Shown here: positions 297 to 56,687 of the stretch, one piece after another
How the letters are laid out: each line of letters begins with the position of its first letter
Numbering within the stretch: the stretch's first letter is position 1
Source of the DNA: Diadema setosum
Taxonomy: Eukaryota; Echinodermata; Echinoidea; Diadematoida; Diadematidae
Direction: 5' to 3'
NCBI RefSeq assembly: GCF_964275005.1
Contig: NC_092692.1
Location: forward strand, 11,141,643-11,205,642
DNA length: 64,000 nt
Made by a program: the position numbers and the translations under genes
Notes under the pieces: model-generated
Databases searched by the model: none
What the model was told of the DNA's origin: nothing
What the model saw: the letters and a program-made list of their open reading frames with translations, nothing else

Positions 297-2254
297 CTAC
301 GAAACAAAAGAGTAGTAGACAAAATTACTAATAAGCCTGGCCCCTGTCTTATGAAACTTGTGATAGAAATCAATCAATCACAAATCTCTTGAAAGCTGCA
401 ATCAATCGCAACCTGTGATTGATTGATTGCAGTTCTCCGTCTTAATTTTAATCATAACTTTTTTATAAGATGGATTTGCATTCAATCGTAAAGTTGTGAT
501 TGATTTTAATCAATCACAAGTCTTTATAAGACATGTTGTTAAACGGGGCTCTGTCTTTCAACCACCAAGAACTTCGCTTACTTCGACGTCTGTTCTTTAA
601 TGCTATTATAGTGAATATGGGACCATTAATCAACAACAACAACCGACATTATGACTACTAAGTAACTATCGCTGAATAATGTCTTTCATATACAGTACTG
701 TTTTCATATTGTTGATGATAAATCATTCTCCATCGCTAAAATGCATTGGCTGGTAATGTATTCACTTTAACCTGCACGGTCTTAAATGCTAGCTGTATAG
801 ATACTAATATTTCAAACATTGTGTGCAAAAGAAGGCACAAAACAACAACATCTTAAGACATATTATTACAGTGTAAGAATGAAACATTTGACACAGCGGT
901 TTACTACCAGCGAGAGAATAATTATTTTGTGCATAGACTTTTGAAAGTGAGAGCATAAACATAAACAGCCATATTTGCATATACATATCATGTATATATA
1001 CGAAGTTTGTTGTGTGTTATGTTTGAATCTTTCTTCATCCACTCTGTTATGAAGATTTCCCCATCCCCTCATATTACATCTCTTTGTCAGGGCATCACTC
1101 ATTTTTTTTTTTCTAGTTCCTTGATGAGCTCAATAAATTGACTGAAACAGTTCATGCGTAAATTGTACATTGTATCTCATTCGGTACAGGTCTCAGCAAT
1201 CTTTAAACGACCTTTATAGATTTTTGTGAATGTAGATTACGTACAACAAACTCAAATCGGCGATACTCAAAAGCCCCAAATAAATACCACAACACAATAA
1301 AACGATCGATAATATCCATTGTGCAGATGGATCGACCGATCCATAGGCACCTACATGTAAGACAATACACAGAAATTGACATGAAGAACAAAGTCATTCT
1401 TTTATTATAGACAGTGTTATGGTACATGTAGTTTGGTGAAATATCACTCGTGACTACTGTACAGCAGCGAAAGAATTCCTCATCGATTTAAAGCCTCAAA
1501 TGGCAGAATTTTCGTTATTCCTTTCGCGTGACGACAAGGCGCACTTATGAAATGAAATGAAATTCATTTACCAAACAAACATCGTCAACATACTGTAGTC
1601 AAAACAGTCAGTAGTTAAAAAAAAAAAAGAACCAGCAACAGCGTGCAGGCTAGTCGAGGCCAGTCCTTTCAGTGATATACAATGTAGATTACATTGTATA
1701 TAACGTACAATAGCGTTGTACATTATTCACAGAAGCAATGTTATACGTACATATTTACAGGTGCTCTCGTTTCTTTTCAAGTCTAAAACCGCGCAAATCA
1801 AATTGTAGACAACTAAACTGGCGTGACGTACCATTCTTTGTTTGATGCTTGGCGGCACCCAACTATCATACAGACAGAGGGATGAAGTGAAGAGAAGAAA
1901 ACTGAAAGAGAGGAAGAGTCAGTAGAGGAAGAAGGAAGGAATAATGATGACGAAGGAACAAAAAATAGCTGAGGATGAGGAAAAATGGATGAACAAAAGC
2001 CTCCAATTTATTGAAGAAGAATTATTTATAAGAAGAAAACGAAGACGAAAGTGACGAGAAAAAATATGAAAGAATCCCAACTAGGCGTTGTCGATTGCCT
2101 ATTCTGTGTACGTACACTGTACATGAATGCCTCAAGATATTAAACAACATAGAAACTGGACCAGAAAAAATCGCAATACTCTTCCAACGCTAACAGCAAC
2201 AACAATGTTAACTCTCCAAGCTCTCATGTTTCTCTGGATTCAGTAAAAATTCAC
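297..2254 (-). other. intron between the two CARD-gene exons
   Basis: This is the inferred intron of the CARD gene. It contains a palindromic MITE (340-550), A/T-rich unique sequence and several TACATTGTA-type palindromic words near 1680-1745. I see no further exon with good splice borders in it. Confidence 0.5.
340..550. mobile_element. palindromic MITE, CWG-flanked family, copy 1
   Basis: This 211-bp element is flanked by CTG at 337-339 and 551-553. The ends GCCCCTGTCTTAT and the reverse complement of the right end share the GCCCC..TCTTAT frame. The arms are built from its own stem word TTGTGATTGATT, present in both orientations. Compare the copies at 3817, 12054 and 56531. Confidence 0.7.
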
Positions 2255-2417
2255 CTTCATCTTCAACCCCGTCGTCCCGGTGTTTTTGCTTCTCCTTGTT
2301 GCAAATTCGCTCGACAGTGGCAAGCAGCTCGCTGCGCATATTATAGACGTCGCCATCGACGGTCTTTCTCTGTTTCCGCGGGTTACTCGTGGTCCTTCTC
2401 TTCCTCTTCCTCCCCAT
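2255..2417 (-). CDS. putative first coding exon of the CARD gene, basic N-terminus
   Basis: The ATG lies at 2415-2417, and the frame begins MGRKRKRRTTSNPRKQRK, a strongly basic stretch resembling a bipartite nuclear localisation signal. It continues into a charged helix (about residues 26-54). A donor (AAG then GTGAAT) at 2253-2254 gives 163 nt, 54 codons plus one base, i.e. phase 1. That is exactly the phase needed by the CARD exon at 296, where the split codon becomes GCC (Ala). Without splicing the frame would stop 14 codons later. The pairing of the two exons is inferred from strand, order and phase only. A stand-alone 69-residue ORF is the alternative. Confidence 0.5.
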
Positions 2418-3816
2418 CTCCGCTTCATCATCTCAAATGAACAGCTCTAGCTCTCTGTAGAGCGCTGCACGTTGCCGGGTTTTATCTTTCATGCTACGCG
2501 TCATTTACGCGGACCGAGCGTGTGAAAGAGATATGCGCGTTTTTATCAAGTAAGGGCCATAAAATACATAAATACGCGCTTACATATTTCATTTTGGCAC
2601 GCCCAGTTTTGTAGTTCTCATGTCTGTAGAACTGTCGATTTTTGTTCTAAAATGTACACATATGCATAAGAAATGCGTGAAATAACGCTGTAATATAAGT
2701 ACTAACACGATTTCACTTGGATGACGACCTACAGTAAATGCGAAATATCAGCCAAGAAGTACGGCAGTCTAAGAGCATCCCCTTCTGGGATAAAAGTCGG
2801 TATACCGACTTTTACTTTTGATCTCAAAATACTCTGAAACAACTCATCATCCAGGCAAATCGCGTCAGCCAGGTAAGTTTCTTGGTAGCCTCCTTCGATA
2901 TATTGCAAGCAAATATGTGATATTGTGCAAGACGGGTTCTCATGGCCTTACCAGAACTACATTGTATGTTTTCACTTTAACATGACATCGATAAAACACC
3001 TTGTCTTTGGTAGAAACGACACAGCGGCTCTGACTAGCATGGACGCGAAATGACAGAATGAATAGCAATCTTATTTGCAGACATTTTTATACATTATAAG
3101 TCAGGTCAGGTGCACTATATCAAAAAGGAAGAACAAAAAAAAAAAACAAACTTGTAGGACCAGGTGGAGAAAAAAAGTAACTGTCATTATTATCTTATCG
3201 ATCAATAGTGACATTCTCACATGCACTACATGTTTCTTTTTCTTTTTCTTATTTAAATCATCACACAAAATATCGCGTTTTATCTGAAGTACCGAATCGT
3301 GCAAGGTTCAAAGTTCGTGGTGTTTATTACAGTTTTTTTTTTCTCTTTTAATTGGCAGCATCCTCATAATTTGAGCATTGTCTAAAGTAAAATGATCCCA
3401 ATCAGAAGTCATCATCTCAACTTATCACTTTTAAATTTTTTCTTTTCTTTTCTTTTCTTTTCAGAACACAATACAAATGCCCGTCTGACAAGATCGGGGT
3501 TTGTAATGATCACTCACGCACAAATACGTAACTATACAATCACGTTAAGTACGCTATATATATAAAACACTTGCATAATAATTGAATGCTTTCGTAGAAA
3601 TTAGTAGTTTGTTTCCACTAGAAACAAACGGCAAACTACATGTATAGCAAAGAAAGTGTATATACTATAATGTATACTTGTACAAAGTTGACGCTACCTT
3701 TTTCATGTTTTTGTTTGTTTGTTTTTTCTTCCCTGTGTCCATGTTGCTAAATCATGAATACTCCAGCTCATGATGCACAGTGTAGAGACACTATACGCGT
3801 ATCTTAGTAGGATCTG
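2418..3816. other. upstream region of the CARD gene, no gene seen
   Basis: This is AT-rich sequence 5' of the putative CARD-gene start. It includes a short pyrimidine repeat (TTTTC)n near 3443-3463 and several A or T runs. The small frames overlapping on both strands near 3075-3304 come from A/T tracts. No convincing promoter motif was recognised. Confidence 0.5.
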
Positions 3817-3982
3817 GGCCCTGTTGCATAAAACCCTTACCGCTGGACTTACCGCTCCTTTCTAGCGGTAAGTCTTGAAATCAGCGGTAAATTTTATAAT
3901 CCTTGATGCTGATTGGCTGTGATGCCTAATTTTGACGGTAGTTACCATTGAAATTCAATGGTAAGTTTTATGCAACGGGCCC
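3817..3982. mobile_element. palindromic MITE, CWG-flanked family, copy 2
   Basis: This 166-bp element is flanked by CTG at 3814-3816 and 3983-3985. The termini GGCCCTGTTGCATAAAAC and GTTTTATGCAACGGGCCC are inverted. The internal stem words are TTACCGCT/AGCGGTAA and TTACCATTGAA with its inverse. The centre contains GATTGGCTG (3911-3919), shared with copy 4 and in inverted, one-mismatch form with copy 3. Confidence 0.78.
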
Positions 3983-4768
3983 CTGTATTCATGCTCAAAA
4001 CTGGGCGTAAGTAGAACACGCTACATCTACAATGTATCTCTTTACTGTTACGACTGAAACAACTGTAGCTTGGCTAGAACACCTGAGAGATTGTATTTAG
4101 CTGCCGCTGCCTCATTATGGCCCACGCAAGAAGAAGCAAAATAGGCATTTCACCTTGGTTGCGTTTGATCAAACGCCCCTTCGTAACGATAAATTCTAAT
4201 GACGGCAGATTATTTGCGTGGAGTAAATATTGTCGGAATTAAAACTCTAGTACTCAGATAGAGTGATGTCTGCTCTTCAACAGTGCAGCTGCTCCGCGAT
4301 GGGTAATCTCCGTGTACATCAAGGCACGCTTAGCAGTTGTCGAGTCTTGCAATAGATTTAAGTGATGGCTAATGAAATATGAAGTAGCTTTCTGGTTACC
4401 ATGGAGACAAACTGCGTTTTTTTCTCATTGATTCATCACTATCCGCGCCACTGTATATACCGTGCCGATTCAAGATGTTTGCGCCCGAACCCAAAGTGGA
4501 TCAAGTCATAGCTTCATTGTAGGCCATTACAATACGCTTTTGATGTAGAAAGAAAAACAAACAAGCTTGTCAGACAGACTGAAAAACTGACACACATGAC
4601 ACAGGAACAACGAGAGAAGGAGGGGGGTGGGGGAGAGAAAAAAAAAAACACCCAACAATATACAGAGAGAGCCAAGTGGTAATAAAATATGAGCCAACCC
4701 ATGACACAGTGAGTTTAAAAGATGAGCACCCTGTGGTGGTACAGGTAGGTATCATCTTCCGACAGTCT

Positions 4769-5083
4769 TTAAAGGGATGGTATCGTTTCTGTTGAGATTG
4801 GGATTTAGGTTTTCAATTGTTTGTGAGATAATGAGAAACCTCTTATGAAATATGAAAGAGTATATACATTGTAATTCTAAGATGAATTCAAACTTATTTG
4901 GTGAAAATTGGTTTTGAAATGGCTGAGATATCCAAACCAAAGTGCTCCAATAGATAATAAAAGATAGGACCCACTTGTTTTATTTGGATTGCTTTGTTTT
5001 ACTTTGTTTTTCTGGATATATCAGCGATATCAAAACCGATTTCCATCGAATAAACTTTGAATTCCTCTTAGAATTATATGTTC
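4769..5083. mobile_element. TTAA-flanked foldback, AGGGAT family, right-truncated copy
   Basis: It begins TTAAAGGGATGG and follows the layout of the fuller copy at 15545-15974: an arm ending with GGTTTTGAAATGGCTGAGAT, a spacer with TTTGTTTTACTTTGTTTT, then the inverse arm. The right end is lost near 5083. Non-autonomous; no coding capacity. Confidence 0.6.
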
Positions 5084-5088
5084 TTTAA

Positions 5089-8000
5089 CATTTGTTGAAC
5101 AACAAACAAAAGTTGAAAGCAGAAGCCTCATTTCAACCAATACTACTTGTATGCAATCCCTTTTATGTGATTTCTTGGCTATGGGTAAGATCAGGGAGGT
5201 GGCTCACCTCCCTGGTGAGATCTTGCTGGCCCTTTCTCCGAATACCTGCAACTGCATGCATTTTTGTGTTTCATAGTTTTGTCATTATCTACATAATCTT
5301 ATTAGTAGGCCTACATGACATATCATGTTTACGTTTCACGTTGTCATTGATTAATACTTGATTGACGGTACAACAGATCTGTAAATTGACTTTCATCCTC
5401 ATAATAATCATGTTGCTTTGGATGAAAGAGATAGATCAGAGTTGCAGATTGGTAAACACTTGGAGAAACATTGGACACACGTGTCTTGAACTGTAAACGT
5501 TAATAGAGCATGATAAAAATTATTGTCAACTCTGTGTGATATTGTACATGTACATGTACAATGTAGGCCCTACATTGTACATATTATGTACATACGTGTG
5601 AGCATCTTTCCACGTGGTTTAATTGAACACAAACCTTTACCAATTTTTCATTTATCTACTCAGAACACATTTCTCTTGATATACTTAATAAATATGTTGT
5701 ACATCACATTGTAGATATTGTCAGTACTGATGATGGAAAGCACACATGCAAAAGATCTGATTTGGTGCATTGATTTGTGTGATGTAGACATGAATCAAGA
5801 AACAATTTTTCCTGTCTGACATGTCTGAATTGACACAAAAAGGAGAAGGGTTTCTTTTATTTTTAAACATCATTTGAAAATTATTACTGATAGAAATATA
5901 ATAGTTGATGTACAAATGTATAGAGAAATGTTCACATTGGGATACTGGGTATATTTTCAAATTAATGTGGAGGAATAGTGAATGCTTGGTATAGATTTGA
6001 TACTTTAGGCAGGTTTTCTTAACAGGCACAATAAAGTAAAGGACTTATTACGCTTATACTCAAAAGGCTATACATTGTATGTTGTTAATGAATGATACAT
6101 TTAGCGTTGTCTTCGGCAGATATACTGGACTATCGCCCCATTACATTGTACAAAGCAAAATACGGCTCACCTACAGAACTGTACACTATATGACCAAATA
6201 CATGCACACTGTATGTCTTGTACTATTACTGTATGGGCAGTGTCGATGTTGATTCTCAGCCTATTCTATATTTAAATGATCTATGATTTAAAGCTTACTT
6301 TCAAAGCATAACCCTCTTCCTGCGATGCCTTCAAAATACATGTAATACAGCTTGATCATTGCGATTTTCAATAGGTTTGTTCGGCAGTTGGAGTTGTCAC
6401 CAAGAAATTTTCTGAGTACAATAAAATAATGATAAACACCGCAGTATCATGTGATTGATCGAGATCTGCTCCTCGTTTTGTTTCGTTTCATCCTATTACT
6501 GTATATACACCTCTTGTGCTTTGTACACCGTGTATGTTTTGTTTTTCTCTCGCTGAGGAAGTTATACCTTTGCCACTTGCTTTTTGAATAATTATGTCAA
6601 TTCAATGCTTACTGTATGTCTGTTTGTTTATACGACTCAGTATTAGTAAGGAACATTCTAAATACAGCTGTAAACAAAGTTTGATGACATTCTTATGATT
6701 AGGTCCCATTTGGTTCACAGAGATTTTTTATGTAATGGTGAGGATATCTTGGATTTTTCGATCCAGGACAGCCTTTATAGTGTTTGCACTGGTCGTATAC
6801 ATAATGTACCTTATACAGTGTAAATATGAGGTTTGTGTACATGTGTGTAAGTGTAACTCTACCCAACTCGTTGCCATCATCATTATTATCGTTATTTCTT
6901 TTCTAGCAGTTTGTTATAATGGAAAATTTAGAGCTTTGCCACGGCATCATACGCTATGGCGCACAATGTTTCCACCATACACTGTCTTGTACGATATTCC
7001 ATGAAGACTTTCAAAATAAGTTGTCAGAAAAGCCATGACCACATGCCATGAATTGAATGTAACCAATACATCAACTGACAACGGCGTTTATAGAACTGCA
7101 TCATTAGAATGTATTAGAATAGGCCTACCATGGATGCTGGTGTGTTTCATTTTCATACGTCAATTTCGCCGCGATGGTCTTTTGGATTATTTTCCATTGA
7201 GAAAAACATCGTGCTCAGTAAATCATGACGGAATCCTGTCTTTAGTACAGTATGCACACGTACAGCTGTAACTGTCTCGCTGTTTGATTGCAAGATTTAC
7301 TGATTGTTTCTGTCTGTTTCCATTAAAGTTATTCAAAAGACATACAATGTATCTGTATACTTTTTGTGGAATGGAGAAGAATGTAAATCGGTGATAAAAT
7401 CTTTGTATGTACAAAAATTGTAGGGCCTACATGCACCAGCTATATGTACAGTATACATTGTATGTACTGTATACAATGAGCGCGGGGGGGGGGGGCGGGA
7501 ATCCTTGTCAACATTTAAGATTAAAAAAAAAGACTATCAAATAAAGGAAACATCGTGGGTGATCTGTATGTACTACATTATTATTTTTTTTTTTTTTTTT
7601 TGTACTCAGTTGCCGAAGGTAATGACATCGCCTTGAAAAGGCATCGCGGTGGTCTCGATACGAAGAAATCACCCGACGGGAACACGGCGATGAAAACGCA
7701 ACAAGTACAATGTTGTACATGTATAAAGCATGACCCAGGTTCCAGTCAAGCATTATTTTCCTCCTCAAATGCGCTCGATTATGTTCGTAATATAATGACT
7801 AATGAATGATTATGGAGGCTTAATCCACTCAACTTTACAGCGGGTGTCATCATTCCCTTTGCAATCCATTAACTTTGACTCCGAATTCATTGAAAAGTGG
7901 ATTTATGGTTTGCCGATGTAGGACCTACATTGTATATCAAGATCACCTTGAAAAGGTGAACGCTGAATATAAAAGGCTGTTCTTCTCCCCTAATGAGGTA

Positions 8001-8825
8001 ACATCGCTGATTATAGTCGGGACTATAAGCTGCAGTATACAGTACAGTAATGATATCAAAATGTGGGCGAAGGGTCGATGGTACGTAGTTTATCAGTTAT
8101 GGTATGAGAATGAGCCAATTCGAAGTTTTAATTAGTTTGCACAATAATTCATCCACAACATAACAATCATGTTATCAAAATAAGGCCGGGATGAACTTTG
8201 TTCATCATACAAGTGTATATTGTGATAGACAGATCAGAGGTACAGTACAGTGTACAAACATATGTATATAGACAGACAGAAAGGTATTAAGTACAGTTGT
8301 ATGGTGATGCAAAAGCTAGAGGTACAAAGTGTAGATGATCCCGTCACGGAGTGATATGCAGTAATTAGAACCGACTGATAAAGTTACAACGTTTTTGTTG
8401 TGTTTTGTTTTGTTTTTGTTCACGTTTTGTTTGTTTGTCTTTTTTTTTTTTTTGCTCAGGAATTCAAAAAGTAATCGCGGTGACTGCTACGTGTACTGTA
8501 GCTGTACATGTCTCTGTAACATGAAGAATAGAAGGGATACAGTACATGTATGTACAATTTGTATGTACCAGCCACTGTGCTTCGAAAGGGAAAAAAAAAA
8601 CCCACAGAAAAAGAACATTCTGTATCAGCTGTATCAGCCATTTTCACAGTCAACCCACACGTACACTGTAAGCAGAAAACTCGTATACTCATACTCGACT
8701 TCATGACTAGAAATTTGCAGTGTTTTACTGGCATGTTTATGATAGGTACAGTTGTATTTGCTCTTATCTGGTCGAGTATGTAATAGGTGATGCACGGTAT
8801 ACAGTGTATGTAAGTAATAAGAAAC
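5089..8825. repeat. gene-less AT-rich stretch dense in TACATGTA/TACATTGTA palindromic words
   Basis: No ORF here shows recognisable protein features. The notable content is a high density of 8-9 bp palindromic words (TACATGTA, TACATTGTA, TACAGTGTA). Examples are the compound palindrome around 5543-5583, 6070-6080, 6142-6150, and 7446-7482, and a 10-base G run at 7485-7494. Small hairpin at 5193-5213. Confidence 0.45.
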
Positions 8826-8896
8826 AAATGATGATAATGATGATGATGATGATGATGAAAATAATCATGATAATGATGATGATGATGATGATGATA

Positions 8897-8927
<31 letters not shown>

Positions 8928-8944
8928 TGATAATAATAATAATG

Positions 8945-8975
<31 letters not shown>

Positions 8976-8997
8976 GAAGAAGAAGAAGAAGAAGAAT
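8826..8997. repeat. trinucleotide microsatellite (GAT)n(AAT)n(GAA)n
   Basis: This is about 170 bp of imperfect GAT, then AAT, then GAA triplets. It creates long Ile, Met, Leu or Ser runs in several frames that are not genes. Confidence 0.95.
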
Positions 8998-10270
8998 AAC
9001 ATACACCTGTAACATGACGAACTCCTTAGTGTCAACTGTTTGTTTCTTTGTTGTTGTTGTTTTCCCTGTGCGGTTAAAGTTTGTTCGTGCTGATTGTTTT
9101 GATCAACTACCGTGCAAAAACAGATCCGCATCATCGAGAACATCGACTCGCTCTGAGCATGCTGAGGTTTGGATGTACATTGTACATCCTCTGTATTCAC
9201 GGTTTGCAGTGCTGTAGATATCAAACGAATCGATCACTGTGCCGAGTGGCTCTCATGATGCGTGGGAACAAACGCAAATTTCGTGTATAATACATGAAGA
9301 TACTGCTTTTAATGCTCCTAGCTGTTTCTTCTATACAAAATAGACTGACATTTTGTCTGCTTATAAGTACAAGTGTGTGTACTGTACATACAAGCTCTTC
9401 TCTCCTTTGGGTCATGCGGTGCAATGATTACATGTATATCACTTTTTTTTTTACGTATAACATTGAGCACACTTGCGCTTATCTCTTTCTTAAATCTATC
9501 AAAAACTTTGAAAATACTTCTACATGTAGACCAACATACATGTACACTGTACATGCTCATGTACAATATACGTACAGGTCAAGTTACTTTATGTTTTATC
9601 TTTATCTAATATTTTTTGTCAGTTTGTTGGTTTACATAAAATACTGTACATCATTGAGACATGCACGGAGAAAGATTACAATGTACATGTAACTTGAGGA
9701 TTTCTCTTGTCTCTTGCGTGGCATTTACATTCCTACGTATATTACAGATTTTCATAGTAGCTGTGATAATGATATTACCATAATATTATTAGGATTTCAG
9801 TCATGCTGCTTTCAGGAGCGATTCCTTTTCACACCCTCCTTAAATGCTATGACAACTACTGTGATTATTCTTATCCTTTGTAAACCCACCGGTGTACAAG
9901 TTGCTTACCGCCTTTTCCACGTTCAAAAGTGTAACTGATCAGTGGGAATCAGTGCTTCTGCGGTAAAATTAATATATTCATACGTAACTGTGATATCACT
10001 GTGCAGTGACATACATGTACAAGTGTATTCTAATAGTGTGGATGCTATCAAAGGTCTTGTCGAGATTTGAGAATTACGATGTGTGCCATGGATGTAACAA
10101 TATCGCGCCACATGTACAATGTATGACAGGGTTTTATTTTCTTTTGTTTGTACAATGTATACCAACAAAGTGAAATATATTTTATACCTGTAGTTGAAAA
10201 TGAACAAAAATGAAACCTAAGAGTCCAGTAAATGTACGTTTGATGAGCTCAATGTCTACGAGATACATAC
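8998..10270. other. no gene seen; palindromic-word-rich DNA
   Basis: Frames here are short and low in complexity. TACATGTAC and TACATTGTAC words recur (9175-9190, 9538-9566, 9679-9692, 10110-10122, 10151-10159). No splice-bounded coding signal apart from the exon ending at 10271. Confidence 0.45.
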
Positions 10271-10373
10271 CCGGACTCAAGTTCTCGTCTGTAGGCGTTG
10301 GGGGAGGTTCTTCCTTCTTGGCCTTGGCACTGTCATCTTTCTTCGCTTTTCCCTTCGGTTTTGCTACTGGCAT
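10271..10373 (-). CDS. putative first coding exon, Lys/Pro-rich N-terminus, unknown protein
   Basis: A minus-strand ATG lies at 10371-10373. The frame begins MPVAKPKGKAKKDDSAKAKK, then a proline-rich run EEPPPTPTDENLSP. The frame reaches a strong GTATGT donor (10265-10270) after 34 codons plus one base (phase 1). It stays open beyond that, and a second plausible donor (CAG then GTATAA) lies near 10188, so the exon could be longer. The lysine-rich, disordered composition and skewed codon use differ from the surrounding AT-rich DNA. I do not recognise the protein; such N-termini occur in many ciliary and cytoskeletal proteins, which is only a hint. Downstream exons were not identified. Confidence 0.42.
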
Positions 10374-11912: not shown

Positions 11913-12053
11913 AAAGGGACGGTACAGTTGTGGTTGAGGTGATGATTAAAGGGATCGTACAGTTTTGGTTGAGACCTAATTTTAGGTTTCTAACATATTT
12001 GGCGATATAATGAGAAACCTCTTTATATATGAAACATGAAAGAGCATGTCCAG
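11913..12053. mobile_element. truncated TTAA-foldback ends, AGGGAT family, partly duplicated
   Basis: Two successive left ends of the AGGGAT foldback occur (AAAGGGACGGTACAG near 11914 and AAAGGGATCGTACAG near 11949). The arm motif AATGAGAAACCTCTTTAT follows. The element is interrupted by the MITE at 12054 and its right half is not found beyond it. Confidence 0.55.
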
Positions 12054-12194
12054 GGGCCCGTTTCATAAAACTTGTCATCAGTGACAACTGCCACATTTCT
12101 ATGACAAATTTGCTCTCAGTCAATCAGACGCAAGGATTTCAGTAGCTTGTCACCTCTATATGACAACTTGTCACTGATAAGACAAAAAGGGGTC
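12054..12194. mobile_element. palindromic MITE, CWG-flanked family, copy 3
   Basis: This 141-bp element is flanked by CAG (12051-12053) and CGG (12195-12197, one mismatch). The left end is GGGCCCGTTTCATAAAAC; the right end is eroded (AAAAAGGGGTC). The stem word is TTGTCA with inverse TGACAA, repeated in both arms. The inverse of the core motif occurs as CAGTCAATC at 12117-12125. Confidence 0.65.
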
Positions 12195-12197
12195 CGG

Positions 12198-13279
12198 AAC
12201 TCAAAATTTTCTATGATGGCATTTCAGAATTAATTCGTAACTTCTCAGACTCAGAGCGCAAATTACGATCAAATAATTACTATGAATGATGGACACAATG
12301 TCCTCTTTATGATAAAAATAGTAGCAAAAAGCTGAACCAGGTTATATTCTTCGAATGATTTCCCTAAAGTAGACAGTAATGAATAGACAAGAAGAAATCT
12401 GTATGAATGTATCGGCCGTACTGGTCGTTTCAAACAGTCGCTGCCAGTGCGTTAAACCAAGAAAAGAATATTGATCAATGCAGAATTTCACGTTCACAGA
12501 ACCTTTGCAAAAGTAAGTTATCAACACACAATCAACCGTTGACAACGAGGAATCAATGAATGGAAGAGAAAAGGAAAAGAAAAGTAAGATCTTGACTAAT
12601 CATTATGCTCGACGTATTTACAGGGTATGCAAGGGCGCCCCCTTCAGGCAGTACCTTAATTATTGATTTTCATGATGACCTTCCCAAGTTGATTGTTGTT
12701 TACGAGCAAGGCATTGTGCCTATGAACAACAATTGGGTAGTGCTACTATTTCGGGATCTTTGACTGTATTGAATTCAAAGGGTATCGAAAACATGGCTTC
12801 TTATTTCATAGGATCTATTGCTAACTCACGATGTTCCAGAGACGATTCATGTTTTTTATTCAAGCGTTGGTGGCGCTGAACCGGCAGTAAACTTATCATT
12901 ACTTTAACACCGAATATTCAGTAATACTAATGAAAAGACAATAAGGACTGATTTATGTCAGGACTTATTGCTTTCAGGGCTACCGCGAGTACTTACAAGA
13001 CACGCTCAAAGAGTGCAAAATCTCCTCCAAGTTGACTTACACGCATCTTTGAAAAAAAAAAAAAAAACCAGAAAAGAAAGAAAGGGAGAGAGAGAAAAAA
13101 AAGCTCGAAACCATGTTCGGCATCAGTACCAAAAACAGATTATGGGTCAAATTTGAAAATTTTATCCATATCCTTTCATTTTTTATTTCTCAGAAACACT
13201 CAAATAAGCAAAGGATCAAAGAAAAGACCAAGGTTAGGAAGATTGTATGAAGTTTGCTTCTTTTGGTGGTGATAATTAC
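12198..13279. other. no gene seen
   Basis: Unique AT-rich sequence with an A-rich tract at 13051-13100. No coding frame with recognisable content. Confidence 0.45.
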
Positions 13280-24629: not shown

Positions 24630-25227
24630 AGGGGCCCTGAAATCCAAATGTATGTTGATTTGGGTTGATTTATGATACCCTCAACATCACTTTTGCATTG
24701 AAACAAATATCTAGAAACATTCCATATATTTTTAATGATTTTTTTTCTTCAGATTACTTGGGAATGCCCACAAAAAATCCCTCCAAACCAATATTCTTGA
24801 GATGACCTCTTCTGTCAATCATTGCTAAGGTACTGAAATGTTTAATAAAAGACATTGGAATGCACCTTGCCCTCGACTCAGCATAACTTGCATGTTCCCT
24901 AGCCATGTCTTTTGTTAGTCACATTAATATCACAGAAACATGCAAGTTATGCTGAGTCGAGAGGAAGGTGCATCCCAAGGTCTTTTGTTAAACATTTCAG
25001 TACTTTAGCAATGATTGACAGATGAGGTCATCTCAAGAATATTGGTTTGGAAGGATTTTTTGTGGGCGTTCCCAGGTAATCTGAAGAAAAAGAGAAGAAA
25101 AAATTGTTAAGAATATATGGATTGTTTCTAGATATTCATTTCACCGCAAAAGTGATGCTGAGGGTATCATAAATCAACACAAATCAACATGCCACAAATC
25201 AACATGCATTTGGATTTCAGGGCCCCT
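24630..25227. mobile_element. TTAA-flanked foldback MITE, AGGGGCCC family
   Basis: TTAA lies at 24626-24629 and 25228-25231. Ends AGGGGCCCTGAAATCC and the inverse continue as a foldback for nearly the full 598 bp. The arms pair at 24790-24900 and 24930-25050 (word GACTCAGCATAACTTGCATG and its inverse). The only spacer is about 50 bp. It is inserted within the transposon nest. Confidence 0.85.
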
Positions 25228-41478: not shown

Positions 41479-42129
41479 CTACACGCAGCCGCTGTCGCCA
41501 AGCGACAGTGGCTGCACCTCTATCCCTTCGCAGACGTTGTCATTTTTCAGTGTGGTTGTGCGACTCCTTCATGAATATCTTTATTAATCGTGGAAAACTA
41601 AAATACAAGGAATTATCGTAATCTATGATAATCTGTATGCGATTTCTTGTTTAATTACGTCAAAAACTCACCGAAATCTGTGGCTGAAATCAGATCTGTA
41701 AACGTCCTTATTGCTTCACTCCTCATCTGCGTGTTATAATTTGAATGGCATGCATTCACTCTCATGAGTCATATACTACAACGTACAACGTAGGTAGAGG
41801 CGCCCTCTAGCTCTCCGACTACCTACGTTGTACGTTGTAGTATACGAGAGTGAATGCCATTCAAATAAAACGCAGATGAGGAGTGAAGCAATAAGGACGT
41901 TTACAGACCTGATTTCAGCCACAGATTTCGGTGAGTTTTTGACGTAATTAAACAAAAAATCGCATACCGATTATTGAATGATTATCATAGATTACGATAA
42001 TTCCTTGTATTTTAGTTTTCCACGATTAATAAAGATATTCATGAAGGAGTCGCACAACCACACTGAAAAATGACAACGTCTGCGAAGGAATAGAGGTGCA
42101 GGCGCTGTCTCTACAGCGGCTGCGTGTAG
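41479..42129. mobile_element. 651-bp foldback flanked by 16-bp direct repeats
   Basis: The arms 41479-41797 and 41819-42129 are nearly perfect inverses, leaving a 21-bp loop. The ends CTACACGCAGCCGCTGT and inverse are immediately flanked by CAAGGGCATAGGCTAA (41463-41478) and CTAGGGCATAGGCTAA (42130-42145). That is a 16-bp direct repeat with one mismatch. The long duplication is unlike the 2-9 bp of most cut-and-paste DNA transposons. The open frame within the left arm (to 41621) reads no known protein. Confidence 0.75.
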
Positions 42130-43420: not shown

Positions 43421-44400
43421 GGGAGCGTAGCGACCGAGCCCGAGCGAGCGAACGGGGGGGGGGGGGGGGCATGGGAGGCCGGGGTATCCCCCCTCCCGTA
43501 TCCGGGCAATTACCCCCGGAGGGCAATTACCCCCCGGCCAAATACTGGTTAGTGGTAAGGTTAGAGTAAAGATTAGGGTTAGGGATAGGTTTAGGGTTAG
43601 GAGTCTGGAATAGGGTTAGGGTTAGGTTCAGGATTAGGATTAGGATTAGGGCCAGGGAAAGGGTGCGGGGTAATTGCCCAGGGGGTAATTGCCCTACACC
43701 CCCCCCCCCCCCACTGTAAGGAGATTTTTCCTTTTTAGGAGTGACAGCTTGCAATTTTAAGCATACTGCATGCCCTATTTTTTCTTTCTTTTTTTGGCCC
43801 AAATAATGGTGGGGGCTGCAGCTGCAGCCCTCCACCAAATGCATTGGAACACTTCTGTTGTTTTTTGTTTGTTTGTTTTTTGTGTGTGTGGTTTTTTTTT
43901 TTTTTTTTTTTTTTTTTTAGGGGGATCTCGACGGGGGCACATTATTTTTTATGTGATGGTGGGTGTAAGATCCTCGGCGAGGGAGCGAAGCGACCGAGCC
44001 GGGGGGGGGGGGGGGACGTGTGGGACGGGGATACCCCCTCCCACGGTAGGGGCTTTTTGTAAAAACAAAGTACAAAAGTTGCGTCTATAGAGCATTTAAA
44101 AGTAAATTTCTAGTGAATTAAACAGTGGGAAAACCAATGCGAAGGCGAAGGAGTATGATTATAACATACGGGGTACGGTATTGTGATGGTGTGAGAAGAT
44201 CGGCGAGGGAGCAAAGCGACCGAGCGGGGAAGGGTGTCGGATCGGAGGGGGGATACCCCTCCCACTGTATAGGGACTTTTTGTAAAAACAGAGTATAAAA
44301 GTCGCGTTTATAGAGCATTTTAAATCAAATTTCTAGGAAATTAAACATAGTAAAAATCACTGCGAAGGGCTATGATTATAACATATGGGGGTACGGGTCT
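43421..44400. repeat. satellite-like units with the GAGCGAAGCGACCGAGC motif
   Basis: The motif (one variant, GAGCGTAGCGACCGAGC) occurs near 43423, 43983, 44208 and again at 47802. Each is followed by a G run, a GGGGATACCCC-type word, and a TTTTTGTAAAAACA..GAGCATTT block. Spacing near 225 bp between the second and third units suggests a diverged tandem array. Interrupted by a telomere-like MITE and later by LINE sequence. Confidence 0.6.
43498..43696. mobile_element. telomere-like MITE, copy T1 (reverse orientation)
   Basis: About 199 bp, with ends GGGCAATTACCCCC and GGGGTAATTGCCC inverted. The core is degenerate TTAGGG/TTAGGA repeats (43558-43650). Opposite orientation to T2 and T3. Confidence 0.6.
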
Positions 44401-47596: not shown

Positions 47597-47798
47597 CAAT
47601 TATTTCACTTTCGTTACTTTACCAACCATTGTAATGTATCCTTATGTACTGCATGTAAGTTTTCAACTATTGTTTTCTTTGTATAAATTTGCATGCATCA
47701 TTTTTGTCACAGAAGAAAGTGAGATTTATGTTTATATACTATTTCATAGTGAAAAAAAAAACAACGAAATACATTTGAACTGAAGTGAACTGAACTGA
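47597..47798 (+). mobile_element. 3' tail fragment of a second LINE-like element
   Basis: About 200 bp ending in a poly-A run, ACAACGAAATACATTTG and a (GAACT)n-type tail, distinct from the preceding (GAATT)n tail. It is directly abutted by the resuming satellite motif, so it is either an older LINE end or a composite insertion. Confidence 0.5.
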
Positions 47799-48336
47799 AG
47801 GGAGCGAAGCGACCGAGCGGGGGAGACGGTGTGGGAGGAGATACCCCATCCAATGGTAGGGACTTTTTGTAAAAACAGAGTATCAAAGTTGCGTTTATAG
47901 AGCATTTTAAATCAAATTTCTTGGGAATTAAGCATAGACAAAGAAAAATACTTAGAAAGGACTATGATCATAACTTATGAAAACTATTTATTATACAAGT
48001 ACGGGTAGAGCAAGCCACAGTCTTTCACTTTGCCATTCGTCTGAAATGTCTTCATAAAAAGCTTAGACATGATCACAATGTTCGAGCAATACAAATTATT
48101 CTTATATTACTAAAAAGCATAGAGTAAGGACAAATGTGAGGTTTACTAAAGATATATTTCAAGGGGCACACTCAATGGCGCGAGGCTACCATCTATAATT
48201 TACTCATAAGTTATTATGATTTTCGCCCCGTTAGGGACGAACTAAGATTTACACTTGCTTTCTCCTGCCTATTTGTCCATGATGTGATTTACCAACTTAT
48301 TGTAAGCAAGGCAATTTCTATTCAGACTTTAAAAAA
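47799..48336. repeat. satellite unit resuming after the LINE, then unique DNA
   Basis: The GGAGCGAAGCGACCGAGC motif and the TTTTTGTAAAAACAGAGTAT block continue the array interrupted at 44653. Confidence 0.6.
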
Positions 48337-48544
48337 CGGGTCTAGGGCAATTACCCCCTGGGCAACTACCCCGCACCCTTCCCCTGGCCCTAATCCTAAT
48401 CCTGATCCTGAACCTAACCCTAGCCCTAACCCAAACTCCTAACCCTAAACCTAACCCTAACCCTAATCTTTACTCTAACCTTACCACTAACCAGTATTTG
48501 GCCGGGGGGTAATTGCCCTCTGGGGGTAATTGCCCGGATACGTA
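48337..48544. mobile_element. telomere-like MITE, copy T3
   Basis: The ends ACGGGTCTAGGGCAATTA and the inverse of GGGGTAATTGCCCGGATACG bound CCCTAA-type repeats (48395-48482). Same orientation as T2 and strongly similar to it. Confidence 0.65.
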
Positions 48545-49954
48545 AAAAAAAATGTAATAATATTGTTAATTACAAATACACAGTCTACTCAGGTATACGT
48601 ATACTGCATTAGGGGTCTCTTGATTATGTGTTCTAACTGTGTTCTGTTTTTCTTAATTATTGAGATTGGTATTCATCACAATGCAGATTCTTACAATGTC
48701 TGAGAAATAGGGTAGAAAAGGTACCGCAAAAAAAAAAAAGAGAGAAAAGGGTGCAATATCAAGCATTCTTGGAAAATTGTCTGCATTTCAATATTGAAAC
48801 ATTGATTTGGACTATCCCCATATCGTAATGCACTTGGGAAATTGAAAATTCTAAATTCTTCATCTAAAAATGTGGTATTTCTTTCTTATGCCCTTCTTAC
48901 ATACACATTTAAAAGCACAATTCATCTAAAAAAGAAATATTCATATTACTGCAACCCAATGACGAGGTGAAGTTTTACAGGTGAAAAACTACAACATGGA
49001 TTTCAAAAACTGTGATCTTAATATAATTATGATGCTCAAATTTTGGATGAATATTGACCCAAAAAAATTGTCCACAATTGCCAAGATTATTACAAAAAAA
49101 AAAAAAACTTCCACATAAGCGTTTTGCCACTATACTGTGTGGAGTTGTAGCAGCTGAAAATTTGTATAGACTTTATAGTACCGTTATTCATTCAAATTTT
49201 TTAGGCAGAATTCAAATCTTGGGACAAATGACATGCAATTTATGAGTGAGTCTCATTTTCACTCATAAAAACAATGTTCCTGGACAAAATAATCAAGGAT
49301 TATAAGTGTAAGGATTCTTTTGTGATAATTTTGTTTTAGTATAATAGTGATAATTGTTGGTGAAATGTTTCATCATTGCTCAGTATTTTAAATCTTGATA
49401 TGCTATTAAACTCTACATTAAAACGTTATAAAACTGTGTTTGCCAAAGGTTTGAACACACTTTGATGAAAGTAGGCGATTGTTTAAAAGTTCCCTTTCGT
49501 TTTGTACATCACTGTACATATAGTGCATATCGTTCCGCATTTTTTGATAAAATTGCTTTAAAAAATAGAATCTATCAGATGTATATGTTAGCTCTTTTAT
49601 CAAAGCAATGTAGAGAATAGTAGCAAACAAACATCACATGGCATGGTAAGTCTGCTGTGGCTCATCAACTTTGATAAAATTTTCCTTTGAATCTTCCTGA
49701 CAAAAAAAAACAGTGATTTTTTTCATTCCGTCCCATCCCACCAACAAAATCTTTTGTTGCCATGGAAAAACCCAAATGTCTGCCTTGTTAGTGTACTTTC
49801 ATGCGTTCATACTTCATAAAAAAAAAATGCATAATGTATATAAGGGTATATGGCTGCTTCCATATTAATATTTATTTTGTAGGCGAAAAAAAAAAACTCT
49901 ATCAAATTCCGTCCCGTCGCGGTCCCTTGATTTTTAGATCAGACCCTTTTTCAG
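48545..49954. other. no gene seen
   Basis: AT-rich unique DNA with A runs near 48729 and 49094. No supported frame. Confidence 0.45.
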
Positions 49955-50240
49955 TCGATAAACTCAGTTTTTTTCGGGAGCAACTTTGCAGATCGAATAA
50001 AAAACTAAGTTTGTCACGATAAACTTTTTTTTTCACTCGAAAAACAGAGTTTATCGATAAACTGAGTTTTCGCTCGATAAACAGAATTTCTTGATAAACC
50101 TTATAGTTGGTCGCTTGATAAACAGAATAATGGATTATTCGATAAACTAATTTCGCTCGATGAGCAGAGTTTATTAAAAAACTATGACTTGCGACTATAT
50201 ATGTACTTTGTCAGTTTATCGGCGATAAATTCAGTTTATG
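49955..50240. repeat. degenerate CGATAAAC/GAGTTTAT repeat field
   Basis: Within about 285 bp the word GATAAAC (or its inverse GTTTATC) recurs about nine times. It is often followed by a GAGTTT- or GAATTT-like word (for example CTCGATAAACAGAATTTC near 50080). Spacing is irregular (about 20-40 bp), so this is not a clean tandem array or CRISPR. Confidence 0.55.
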
Positions 50241-50886
50241 GAATTATTGGGCAAATAGCGTGCCATATGGAGAAGGGTTGGGGAAGGGAGATACAGTACA
50301 GCAGGTTGTGTCATTGGAGTGGGAGGGGTATTAAACTAAATTGGTCTCCCTCAGCCTCAATTCTCTCAGATACCTTCGACAACGAAGGTCAATACTTCTG
50401 ATTGAAATATGCGCTTTTTCCTGCTATTCTCAAAGAGTTGTTCACCTCTTGATCCTACTGAATACATGTAATACCCTATTTACTATTTGGAAAAAATGGT
50501 TTACTGTTATGGATACTGTTATAATATCCTATACAGCGGGAATCGATGCATAGGCCTGAAGAGGGGTAAATAGAAATACGTGGCACTGGTTGAGGCCTAC
50601 ATTTTCAGTTTCCTTGTATTTGCGGTTCGCGTCAGGGCCTGGTTACTTTGTTATTGGCGGTGGTGGTGGTGGTGTTGATGGTGATGGTGGGTTCAGGGGA
50701 AATACCGCAACCTAATCAATAACTTGGAACCCTCCTTCTTTTTGTAGAGTCAGATATCAAAGTTTTTATTCATTTTGATGAGAAAATCACCCAAAAAAAA
50801 TCACAAAATTAACTTTTTGTTCTGCTTTGTTTGTTTGGGTTCTTTTTGCAATTCAAAGGAATTAGAATACAGTATTGCTGGAAATG
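50241..50886. other. no gene seen
   Basis: Unique sequence with a short GGTGGT run near 50658-50690. Confidence 0.45.
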
Positions 50887-51190
50887 AGGATTGAGTTCTC
50901 AACTTTTTGCAAGATGCTGAGAAATTGATTGTTACAGAGCATACCAGAAGTGGAATTCAATGTTTATTTGAATAAAATCGGTTTTGAAATGGCTAAGATA
51001 TCCAAAAACAAAGTAAAACAAAGCAATTCTAGGGGGTCTCACCTTTCAGTAGGATCGCTTAATGTCTTTTGGATATCCCAGCCATTTCACAATAAATTTT
51101 CATCAAAATAAACGTTGAATTCCTATTAGAAAAAACGTTTTATTTTGTATTTCATGAGAGGTTTCTCATTATCTCATAGCATAAGATGTT
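50887..51190. mobile_element. degenerate AGGGAT-family foldback
   Basis: Carries the family arms GGTTTTGAAATGGCTAAGAT and the inverse CCAGCCATTTCACAA around a spacer with AAAGTAAAACAAAGC, as in 15545-15974. The outer ends are eroded. Confidence 0.55.
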
Positions 51191-51542
51191 ATAGAAACTG
51201 AAGCCAAGTCTCAACCAATCAAAAATTGTCAATTACATCATCTTTGGCCATTATTTCTACATATCTCACAGTTACATCAATACTTGGTTTCTCATTTTTC
51301 ATTCAGCATTTTTAAAATGTTCGATCAATCCAAAGAGTTCATCATATTAGTCGCTGAATATCAATGAAAAAAAAAATGCAAAAGCTTCTTTGTATGTTTC
51401 CCCAATATTGACTAGGCCTATAATTTTTGCCGTCTCTCCCGCCCCAGCCCCCAGAAAAAAAAAAAAAAGAGAGAAAAAAATGGCCGTATGCATGGACCTG
51501 GTGATATATTAACAAATAAAATATTATACAGAGAACTCCGCA

Positions 51543-51581
<39 letters not shown>

Positions 51582-52439
51582 TGTGAAAAGCGCACATTCC
51601 TTCAACTTAGATAATGTGATTTCTGAAAAAGGCGAGTCATGCGCTCTTTGTAAAACCTAATACAATGAAAAAAGTTGTTGACAAACACATGAACCGGGGA
51701 AATGGAAGAGATCTCTCTTCCACCTCCCTGAGTGAACTACGTGTACACGTACTCAGTATGTAGTCCTACAGCATTGAAAATTCAGACAATCCCGAGAAAA
51801 CCAAATACTTTCCGAGGGAGTAGGAATTGAAATATAGCATTGTCCCTCGATTCAACCTCGAGCATTACCCCCCTAAGCAACCCCATCGACGTTTAGCATA
51901 AAGAAACATATGGGGAGAGGGACGGTATAGATGGAGGAGAGGAAGAGATCGGGGTGGGAGAGAGATAATGAGAGAGGGTATAGAGGAGAGAGATCTAGAG
52001 GGGAGGAGTTGGGGTGAGGATGGGGTGGCCATGGGTGGGAGGTGCAGGGTGGGGATATCACCCCAGCCTTTTTGTATGATTACTTTTTTGCCAAGCAGGC
52101 AATTTATTAGTACACGACCCGTGTATCTAGGCAGACAGGCAGGCAGTCGGTCATATGGCAGTCAGTATATTCATATAATAATTTATGTCTAGCAATCGGC
52201 CATTCATGTAAGTCATCTCATCAATCTGTCAGTCTTACATTCAGGCAGTAATCCAGCCCGTCAGCCCCCCTCCCCCCCCCCCCCCCCCAGCGCCCCAGTC
52301 CATGGTAGTATCATTTTACATGGTCCATGGTACTATAAAGCCATGGTAGTATACAAGTCCATATTCAGCAGGGAGGTGGAAAGTAGGCCTATCCCCCTGA
52401 TTTCAGTCAGTCAATGGGGTATGTTTACTAAGCGGAGGC
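51191..52439. repeat. GT microsatellite, purine-rich block and poly-C tract upstream of CMAS
   Basis: (GT)n at 51547-51580. A strongly purine-rich (G/A) block at 51905-52060. Words CAGGCAG/CAGTC near 52130-52165 and 52230-52262. A 20-base C-rich run at 52266-52288. Three CCATGGTA words occur at 52300-52345. No gene seen. Confidence 0.5.
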
Positions 52440-53183
<744 letters not shown>

Positions 53184-53874
53184 TATGTGACCGTGCACCT
53201 CAAAACAAACAAAGTCGCACAAACTGATTTTGCGTGAGGACTGAAAATAAGTGCAATGGGTCAACCTAGCCGAAGTTGACTTTTTCATATTTTCTGAAAG
53301 AGCGGGTCTTCTTTTACATTATGCTAAAATTTGGTATTATAAAATGGGCAGGAAAGTGTGTTTTTCAGCAGTTTATATCGAACTTTTTTGGTAGAATAGT
53401 GTGATTAGGTGTGTCTTTAGAATCCCTTTTTCATTTCTTAAAAACCTTGTCCACACTCTTCACTTTCAACCCTAATAACTTTTGAAAGGATAGTGCTACT
53501 GCTTTGAAAGTTGGCATTAATTATGGGCAGAATGTGTTAATGAGGCATGCTCAATTTCAGTTTAATCTAATAATCTCTTCATTGTTGTTACTCTGGTGGT
53601 TTACATCCTGTTTTTGTCCCATTCATCGCACAGCCAGCATGGTTTGGTAAAGATTAAGCGCTTGAATAGACACTGTTTTTCAGAGCCTCTTTTCTCAGTT
53701 CACACTTTTCCTGAGTTTGTGCTTTCTTTCCAACATTTAGATAGGTTAGGAGAGGCCATTTGATTGTAGTTATTCATCATTTTAAAGCTGAAAGTCTGCT
53801 CTTTCAGAATATGGTCTTAACTAAAAATTCATATCTGGCGACTTTCTGTTTGTTTTGAGGTGCAGGGTCACATA
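53184..53874. mobile_element. 691-bp MITE with TATGTGACC ends in CMAS intron 1
   Basis: Ends TATGTGACCGTGCACCTC and the inverse of GAGGTGCAGGGTCACATA pair, extending as CAAAACAAACAaAaGTCGC for about 35 bp. The interior is unique AT-rich sequence. A partial relative of the end (TTTGTGACCCTGCATTGCAA) occurs at 59867. Confidence 0.65.
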
Positions 53875-54723
53875 TTTTCATTTGCATCAACTTACAATTT
53901 AGTATCATATTATCTGAAACAGGCTGTATGCCATTATTAAATGTGTAGTAATTAAATTGTTTGTTTTTTCTCTCTTTCTACACATGACTGCAAAGACATT
54001 AGGATAGGAAATAATATAGACAGAGTTTTTCCATCTACTGATAAGATAATAACAAAAACTTGCTAGGCCTTCATGGTTGCTAAAATCAACATTAGATATT
54101 GGAGCATATACTATTGGTCTTGGAGCATATAATATAAATTCAAGAAGATGATGTTTGGGGACAGTGTGCCTGCATGGCTGCGAAAGAAGCAATACATCAT
54201 TATTTGATACAGAACAATTAAGATCTAGCATAGCAGTCAGATGAAATAGGTTTCCTATTAGATTTTTTCTTTTTTTTTCTTTTTTTTTTGATAACTGCAC
54301 ATGATTTATCTCTCAGCAGTTTGAATATCAAGTACCAGTATCAAGTACATTGAATGCTCTTATTACAAAGCAATTGCTTGAGATCAATATTGATGACAAG
54401 ATGTCTGATTTGAGATAAAGTCCTTAAAGCCTTATAATAAATTTTTAAAAACCCTCACATTTCCTTTCTTATGCTAATGAGATTAAACGATAAATACCAA
54501 TTTTCAATCTGACAATTCAGGGTATCAAATCAATGCCTGAGTGCCACCACATACATGTATAATCATATAATTTTATGAAAATTGGCATCTGCTTTAAAAA
54601 AAAAAAAAAAAAAAAAATGGAGTATGAATACTTTCAGATAAAATAGTACGTAAATAGAGTGTGAACTGCAATATTGGTGACAGCGCTCAACTATACAAGA
54701 GCTCATGTAGTACACGGATTATA
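53875..54723. other. no gene seen
   Basis: AT-rich DNA with a T-rich run at 54263-54290 and an A run at 54596-54617. Confidence 0.45.
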
Positions 54724-54872
54724 TAGTAGGATGGAAGGCATTGCTTTATTAGTGACTTTGCTGGACAGTCTGTTTCGGCCAAAGCCTCATCAGCAATGGG
54801 GCTTCGGCAGAAACAGACTGTCTAGCTAATAAAAAGTAAATAAAATAATGCCTTCCATCCTATTATATATTG
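54724..54872. repeat. palindromic repeat carrying a hammerhead-like core (minus strand)
   Basis: Outer arms TAGGATGGAAGGCATT and inverse, inner arms GACAGTCTGTTTC and inverse. On the minus strand CTGATGA (54793-54787), a 3-bp stem with a TTTG loop (54786-54777) and GAAAC (54776-54772) have the order of a hammerhead-ribozyme core, as known from Penelope-like elements. Confidence 0.5.
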
Positions 54873-54898
54873 TGCTATATTTATATATACTAATATAT

Positions 54899-55728
54899 AG
54901 AAGTATTGGAACAAGTTCACTTGGTTGACATCAGGTTCATCCGTATTTTATTGCTACTCGGAGTTTCATGCCACCTTCATTTAGGGGCAATCATCAGGCA
55001 ATGATTAAATACATCCCAGAAATGCATTTGGATTGAATTAACGCATTTTAAGCGCGTGATACCAAAACAAAAACAAAACAAAACAAACTATACGCGCCTG
55101 GGCCATAGTGACCAGTGCGCACTTAATCATATCCATTATTACGTATATCAGGCAATGATTATACCGTTGGACAATGCATCGACACCATAAGCTTGTGCGC
55201 TATGACCGTAGTTACCAGCGCGTACTGGATCACATTCATTATTACGCAATAATAATAATTACAATTGTTCAATGCATCGGATAGACTTGACGCGCTTTAT
55301 AGCGCGTGACACTATAACAAAGTAACAAAGTAACAATAGAAGCCAGTGCGTACTGAATCACATTCATAAATAGCATCTGGAAATTTGCATCTGGAAATTT
55401 GCATTGATGTAAAGAAAGCCCAGGTGTATACATGCATCAAATTAACCAAATATGCGATGAATTATTAAACAAAATTGTTAAGAGTTATTAAACAAATAAA
55501 TTGCAATGAAGATAGTCCACACTTAGATGCAGAATACTGAAGGATGGATTATTGCAGAAATCCTTCAGTAAACAGGAGGACACGACGATTTCAATCTAAG
55601 ACTTGAAATTACAGATGTAGAATTTATTTTCATGGCGGCACTTCGACACAAGTTCTGGTCTCTTGTTTAGTAGCGTTTGCTTACGGATGAACCTGATGTC
55701 AACCGAGTGAACTTGTTCCAATACTTCT
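54899..55728. mobile_element. Penelope-like relic with inverted ends and a second hammerhead-like core
   Basis: Inverted ends AGAAGTATTGGAACAAGTTC and inverse extend for about 45 bp. The minus strand carries CTGATGA (54997-54991), a stem TGCC/GGCA and GAAAC (54967-54963). The interior has diverged repeats with ATACGCGC, GCGCGT and CATTATTACG words. No reverse transcriptase is left. Non-autonomous and eroded. Confidence 0.45.
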
Positions 55729-56527
55729 GTCTAAAGCTCTTCCTTTGAGGATATCGAGCACTCTTCATAGAAGGATAGAACCACCAAGTGTATACTAATA
55801 TATATGTATTTTTACTCAATGTAATAATGAGCACAAAAAAGCAATGTATGCCCTAACTGTGTAAGTTTTCTGATAAAAAAGGTAAAATCGTACGAGTTTA
55901 ACTGTAAAAATTTGACTATAGCTAAATTCGGATGAAAAATAAGAAGTTATGACATTTGAAGTTTTGCTAATTTCTGCAAGCAGGTCTTGTACATTGGATA
56001 TGAATATGCAAATGAGTGGGCTAACCATGTAATCTCACAATTTTCCATTTATCTTACTGTACACACAAAAAAAAGACAAATATTCATTGTTTCTGTCATT
56101 GAAATCTGAACATGATGCTATTCCTGGTTGAATAACTTCTGAATAGTGATCAGATATACCAGTTAAGCCTTAGGCATAATTGCATTTGAATGAAAAACTG
56201 GAAATTTCAAAAGATTTTGTACAAAATATATGGCAAGTTGTGAGGGGATGACATGCTCACTTTGCATTTGCATAAATTCATATTGACTGTTCAAAAACCG
56301 CATGTTTCCTGAAAAATTAGTGAAACTTTTAAATGACATAACTTCCTTATTTTTTTACCTGATTTTGATCGAAATTTTATTGTTGAACTCATGATGATAT
56401 TTTACTTTTTCTTATTAGACTAACTTGTATTTCGACTGGATTTTCCCCTTGAAAACCACAAGAAAAGGTCCATACAGTCACATAGGCTACAGTATGGTAA
56501 TGTGACACATTCTACAGGATACAACTA
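55729..56527. other. no gene seen
   Basis: AT-rich unique DNA. Confidence 0.45.
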
Positions 56528-56530
56528 CAG

Positions 56531-56687
56531 GGCCCCATTTCATAAAAAGTTGATATGATAGCAACTCTTGCTGGAATGGCAATTGTCATGGTAACGACAA
56601 GGATCTAGATTCCTGATTGGCTGTTGCAATGGGAAGTTGACATTCCAGCAAAAGTTGCTATCCTAACATCTTTTATGAAATGGGGCC
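56531..56687. mobile_element. palindromic MITE, CWG-flanked family, copy 4
   Basis: Perfect 17-bp inverted ends GGCCCCATTTCATAAAA are flanked by CAG at 56528-56530 and 56688-56690. Stem words ATAGCAACT and TTGCTGGAATG recur inverted in the other arm. The core is GATTGGCTG (56614-56622). The best preserved of the four copies. Confidence 0.85.

Follow-up and report, generated by a model that had tools for sequence, protein, structure and literature searches.

The target of PIF/Harbinger transposons is the trinucleotide TWA. The NuwaI group, in the passages of its survey drawn on here, is instead characterized by CWG target-site duplications (TSDs) and by terminal inverted repeats (TIRs) of 12–61 bp that usually start with GGG (PMC4482050, 2015). 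Here we consider a stretch of 64,000 nucleotides of the sea urchin Diadema setosum (contig NC_092692.1, positions 11,141,643 to 11,205,642; hereafter the window), in which a sequence-only reading had placed four palindromic miniature inverted-repeat transposable elements (MITEs), E1 to E4, proposing that they share ends, CTG or CAG flanks and a core, that each is built from its own stem word, and that both arms change in concert. All four are present where they had been placed, as read from the window sequence. We think it rather probable that they are NuwaI-type non-autonomous elements of separate families, the arms of which were remade en bloc when each family was founded and have decayed independently since. 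The elements are:

340..550, no strand assigned: E1, a MITE of its own family, with the TSD CTG at 337–339 and 551–553.
3817..3982, no strand assigned: E2, a MITE of a young-looking family, with the TSD CTG at 3814–3816 and 3983–3985.
12054..12194, no strand assigned: E3, a MITE with an intact left end (TSD CAG at 12051–12053) and a degraded right end.
56531..56687, no strand assigned: E4, a MITE forming a near-continuous hairpin, with the TSD CAG at 56528–56530 and 56688–56690.

The general features are those of MITEs: lengths of 141–211 bp, direct CWG flanks in E1, E2 and E4, and 288–2215 first-look candidates per family in the 912.7-Mb genome (E1 288, E2 407, E3 2025 and E4 2215). The best 40 candidates were scored in each element search, and the identities are hence those of the closest copies: 93–100% over full length for E1 (93–98% without the element itself), 98–100% for E2 (98–99% without itself), 94–96% for E3 without itself, and 92–100% for E4 (92–99% without itself). 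Judged by these copies, each element is a member of its own high-copy family, and the families appear ordinary, possibly differing in age.

Matches to the end consensus GGGCCCNNTTTCATAAAA with at most three mismatches number six in the window, against a shuffle mean of 0.74 and with none of 100 shuffles reaching six; five of them lie at ends of E2, E3 and E4, and one, at 54571, is not part of this set. The ends are of the GGCCC/GGGCCC type, extending over about 24 bp in E2 and further in E4 and L004 (loci elsewhere in the genome are numbered with an L), congruent with the TIR range and the usual GGG start of NuwaI. The left end of E1, GCCCCTGTCTTATGAAAC, begins with GCCCC and departs from the GGG type. 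Nearly all matches of genomic E1 copies end at query position 195–197 of 217, some 21 bases early, because about 11 additional bases are present just inside the right end of E1. The left flank of E3 is CAG and the right one CGG, and the matches of the 39 other scored E3 copies end at query position 128–136 of 147; the right end of E3 and the CGG flank have therefore decayed, and the flank is uninformative on the target rule.

The target rule itself rests on alignment extents and on individual elements examined. Among the 39 other scored copies of E2, the alignment covers CTG up to its outer base on both flanks in nine, stops symmetrically in 27 and behaves otherwise in three; the symmetric stops fall one base short, retaining the left-hand G and the right-hand C, which fits a non-T middle base on both sides. 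The corresponding 39 copies of E4 comprise 18 that align through CAG on both flanks, nine symmetric stops and 12 discordant cases. Exact CWG on both flanks was found for seven of the 12 elements with two readable ends, namely E1, E2, E4, L001, L008, L023 and L004 (the flanks of the latter being read from the sequence), and the five misses are L013 (CTA/CTG), L006, L010, L026 and the degraded E3. L025 and L020, with decayed ends, were left out of this tally, L002 and L001 are one element, and only a single end is visible in L003, L027 and L040. L010 and L026 have an inverted CTG/CAG flank pair, and are possible recombinants or elements with misread ends. The flanks, direct in E1, E2 and E4, are CWG, as the sequence-only reading had claimed for the four copies with one CGG flank excepted, and they are neither the TWA of PIF/Harbinger (Tourist) nor the TTAA of CMITE/piggyBac. 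The separation from TWA made by the sequence-only reading stands, but CWG is not a new rule, since it already characterizes NuwaI (PMC4482050). By these signatures E1–E4 are MITEs of NuwaI type, of the PHIS superfamily, and a NuwaI transposase would be what moves them.

The shared core had been reported for three of the four copies, which was confirmed; a search of E1 returned none:

3910..3919, + strand: core TGATTGGCTG of E2, exact.
12117..12126, − strand: core of E3, TGATTGACTG, with one mismatch.
56614..56623, + strand: core TGATTGGCTG of E4, exact.

The exact core TGATTGGCTG occurs 10,863 times in the genome (5526 and 5337 by strand) and its reversal 250 times (136 and 114), and a longer version, CTTGNNNNTGATTGGCTG, occurs 3858 times (1975 and 1883) with no occurrence of the reversed control. 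At 62 core sites for which the letters were seen, five spacers account for 53: CATC (24, seen in L006 and L023), CGTC (12, seen in L001 and L010 as well as in E3 of the window), ATTT (eight, L004 and L013), GTTT (five, L026) and ATGC (four, E2). L005, L007 and L009 contain the core with no recognizable element around it, and a hairpin test based on shared 8-mers is weak alone, as 25 of 364 shuffled-core sites also pass it. The core is similar to a CCAAT-box (NF-Y) site.

Between ends and core, each copy had been described as carrying its own word in both orientations. The features in question are the following:

356..383, no strand assigned: left subterminal inverted word pair of E1, ACTTGTGAT...ATCAATCACAA, pairing with 494–521 at 82%.
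494..521, no strand assigned: right subterminal inverted word pair of E1, pairing with 356..383.
3837..3890, no strand assigned: left-arm word of E2, TTACCGCT/AGCGGTAA, present four times and in both orientations, read directly.
3942..3964, no strand assigned: right-arm hairpin of E2, TTACCATTGAAATTCAATGGTAA, with a word differing from that of the left arm.
12072..12087, no strand assigned: word pair TTGTCA...TGACAA of E3, adjoining the left end.
56548..56566, no strand assigned: imperfect left-arm word pair of E4, AGTTGATATGATAGCAACT, read directly, with exact 6-mers not above shuffles.

Repeated words inside the ends exceeded all 300 shuffles in E1 (best 6-mer in six copies), E2 (CGGTAA, four copies), E3 (TGACAA, six copies), L004 and L023. 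In E2, TTACCGCT is found in both orientations in the left arm only, the word of the right-arm hairpin being TTACCATTGAA/TTCAATGGTAA, and exact repetition in E4 is at shuffle level. The arms also differ widely in how well they pair. Counted over 40 positions inward from the ends, identity is 39 in L004, 37 in L001, 35 in L013, 33 in E4 and 32 in E1, and then 29 in L008, 26 in L023 and E3, 25 in L006 and 22 in E2, with 26 of 40 also in L025, the ends of which are decayed. Scored against shuffles, the two arms of the same element yield z values of 17.2 for L001, 16.4 for L004, 13.8 for E4, 7.3 for L023, 5.3 for E1, 5.1 for L026, 4.4 for L010 and 1.7 for E2. L026 and L010 were cut off-register for arm pairing, as was L026 for words, and both are used only from the z-score comparison; the right end of L004 was set three bases too long in the word, arm-identity, z-score, change-count and flank analyses.

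A view of how an arm may be remade comes from L001, which carries the core in both arms with a loop between them. Reversed, L001 aligns contiguously to the single-core element L010 from GATTTACACTGAC (the start also being given as GATTTACACTGACAA) to the end, and the 71 bp left over correspond to its own right arm and core in inverted form. The join is at a GATTT microhomology, and the junction AAGGATTTACACTGACAA is present in 209 exact copies in the genome, with none of the reversed control. The sequence shared with E3 amounts to 54 bp at one of the two L001 cores and to 37 bp at the other; this difference therefore suggests that the single-core order preceded the double-core one. L001 looks like the result of one arm, core included, having been copied inverted over the other, and both a template-switch inversion of one arm and an inverted joining of two elements followed by deletion fit its structure.

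We then turn to whether the arms change in concert, as the sequence-only reading had argued, invoking conversion, template switching or selection for pairing. Within families they do not: five copy pairs displayed 46 single-arm changes, five both-arm changes and one compensated change. Between sister families the reverse was observed, since E4/L008 against L004/L013 gave, in three pairs of 54–55 columns, 7–11 single, 13–16 both-arm and 11–12 compensated changes. Three of the four possible pairs were run, there is dependence among the three E4-family pairs, and a forced alignment of unrelated palindromes also gives compensated columns, so that the between-family count is valid only if the stems are homologous. 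The arms of E4 and L004 are indeed related, at z 3.7–7.1 from 100 block shuffles. In this small sample, concerted arm change would hence be a pattern between families, provided that stem homology holds. This bears directly on the idea that continuing arm-to-arm gene conversion, or template switching in a hairpin, keeps the arms of each copy matched as they drift. The prevalence of both-arm differences between the sister families is what it would predict, and L001 is shaped like one such replacement, yet the excess of single-arm changes within families argues against it, as does the orientation of the 40 scored E4 copies, which match E4 at 92–100% in the same orientation and at 73–79% reversed (E4 against its own reverse reaching 78%). 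We regard continuing conversion as quite unlikely; what survives of the earlier proposal is arm transfer of the kind seen in L001. Selection for a long folded stem, serving strand transfer, small RNA or replication and leaving the sequence free, has a similarly slim chance of being the explanation. E4, L004 and L001 do fold as long hairpins, but E2 pairs only over its end of about 24 bp and has its best 40 copies nearly identical nonetheless, L023, of the E3 family, pairs over about 34 bp and then diverges over the next positions, and pairing is lost arm by arm in copies. Both ongoing conversion and selection for pairing are thereby disfavored, and selection for long-stem pairing is unneeded. 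The outcome that the sequence-only reading had set against its own idea, separate families decaying arm by arm, is largely what we found.

A further possibility is that these are unrelated MITEs of unrelated transposons, with converged ends and an acquired CCAAT-like core, presumably an NF-Y-type site. E1 would be congruent with such an origin, as its stems show weak similarity to those of any other family (z at most 2.9) and the search for a core in it was negative. The longer core, in contrast, is absent from its reversed control and exceeds what a factor site requires, and related arms join several families: E4 with L004, the right arm of E2 with L004 (z 5.1 and 6.0), and L023, L010, L001 and L026 among themselves (several z of 3.2–6.0 with others near zero; the right arms of L023 and L001 at 5.3, and L010 against L001 at 4.6–19.0). 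Convergence is consequently improbable in our view. The E2 comparison also points to a mosaic, with a right arm of L004 kin and a left arm not clearly related to it.

Returning to the reading of separate families with arms remade at founding, the mechanism that we propose is as follows. A common type of DDE transposase would cut and join at the shared outer 17 bp or so and at the CWG target, and the family-specific words inside the ends, often inverted pairs in each arm, would be binding sites for the DNA-binding protein of the family, of helix-turn-helix or Myb/SANT type. A single protein reading the two ends would account for both arms carrying the same word. The palindromic arms may have been made en bloc at the founding of a family, either through one end overwriting the other with an inverted copy of itself or through arm exchange during repair, and copies would thereafter decay arm by arm. 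For en bloc remaking there is one good case, L001, and one mosaic, E2; for the other families we put it forward as a hypothesis, and as a general route of founding we infer it. More tentatively, and with doubt prevailing, palindromes could be self-templated: repair or copying would write one arm, words and core, inverted over the other, and an asymmetric word change would become symmetric in one step and found a new family for a different cognate protein, while the shared ends and core persist by lying outside the rewritten segment or by being carried along with it.

Word arrays were searched for at 20 of the 153 DDE_Tnp_4 matches in the genome. A strong word array was detected at one of them, L040 (5.4e-35), where TAAGCA is present in 13 copies (six and seven by orientation) in the first 300 bp, the largest count in 300 shuffles being six, and where the end is CTG|GGCCGGTATTCCATAAA, of the CTG|GGCC type. 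L043, L046, L048, L049 and L050 hold weaker clusters, with one 7-mer in both orientations and the best reaching 6–7 copies in 350 bp. This layout, similar but with a different word, fits stem words being family-specific subterminal sites, which would most likely bind a protein.

Several observations weigh against this account. Word repetition is not clearly above shuffles in E4 (best 6-mer in two copies, a count reached in 288 of 300 shuffles), L008 (40 of 300) and L001 (24 of 300). The word and end of L040, seen from one end only, differ from those of all of E1–E4; an autonomous NuwaI partner would have a DDE transposase and a Myb/SANT open reading frame, and from that end of L040 neither a Myb/SANT gene nor a second open reading frame was seen; the shared core, which has no assigned role, was not found in the part examined, and no autonomous element with the words of E1–E4 was found among the 20 loci. 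The order of L010 is rare, with eight exact matches against one of the reversed control, and L010, instead of being the precursor of L001, could have arisen from it by deletion. The right arm of E2 is also akin to that of L026 (z 5.1), which blurs the family grouping. As to the target, L006 is flanked by AAG/AAG, and the flanks of L010 and L026, CTG to the left and CAG to the right, are not a direct repeat. CWG was not enriched when 14-bp inverted ends with a direct flank of any 3 bp were sought in the window and in 20 stretches of 10 kb on a fixed grid (169 matches, CTG five and CAG four), a result from an indel-free and chance-dominated scan that carries little weight either way.

Other repeats in the window were also noted. 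Two copies in opposite orientation, at 43520–43695 and 48344–48519, are 95% identical over 205 bp; the repeat has ends of the form AGGGCAATTACCCCC, and its interior is rich in TTAGGG and telomere-like. In a very long nested inverted repeat at 24652–25190, the 155-bp arms are 94% and the 93-bp arms 89% complementary. A long hairpin at 41501–42112, likewise nested, has arm lengths of 133, 110 and 29 bp at 96–97% complementarity and is flanked by related GCAGCCGCTG / CAGCGGCTGC sequence.

A literature text search found no publication with the end sequences and no occurrence of the core string in the ten listed of 123 papers, the end sequence had no match in a viral contig collection, and PMC9179366 gave no match for CWG, TSD, subterminal or NuwaI. 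Aside from the arm question, the population is an ordinary, rich one of NuwaI-like MITEs. How a MITE keeps matched ends while its recognition changes is however testable here by plain sequence comparison, as the genome offers several families with common ends and core and different stems, each represented by candidate copies in the hundreds to thousands, as well as a family that looks as if one arm had been overwritten.

The comparisons with known systems are drawn from parts of the respective papers. Closest is the NuwaI group of PHIS (Han et al. 2015, PMC4482050), a DDE transposase group described in animals, with CWG TSDs and ends that usually begin with GGG; that survey is transposase-based and might miss MITEs, and the passages used here describe neither word arrays nor a core common to families nor any replacement of arms. 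The CMITE families of Acropora corals (PMC2872659) similarly have a conserved internal region common to several families with other parts differing, but they have TTAA targets, a piggyBac link and ends that vary by family, while in the present families it is the stems that vary, with ends and core in common. For two-protein systems in which internal sequences affect mobility, mPing/Ping/Pong of PIF/Harbinger is the counterpart, and the presence of multiple TnpA sites within Suppressor-mutator is cited there as well (PMC9921582); mPing and mPong are, in the part concerned, without a specific promoting internal sequence common to both. Finally, Galileo, of the P superfamily in Drosophila, recruited internal sequence into both terminal repeats and sets a precedent for transfer between them, although its repeats are much longer, its targets are 7–8 bp and its transposase is unrelated (PMC4168063).

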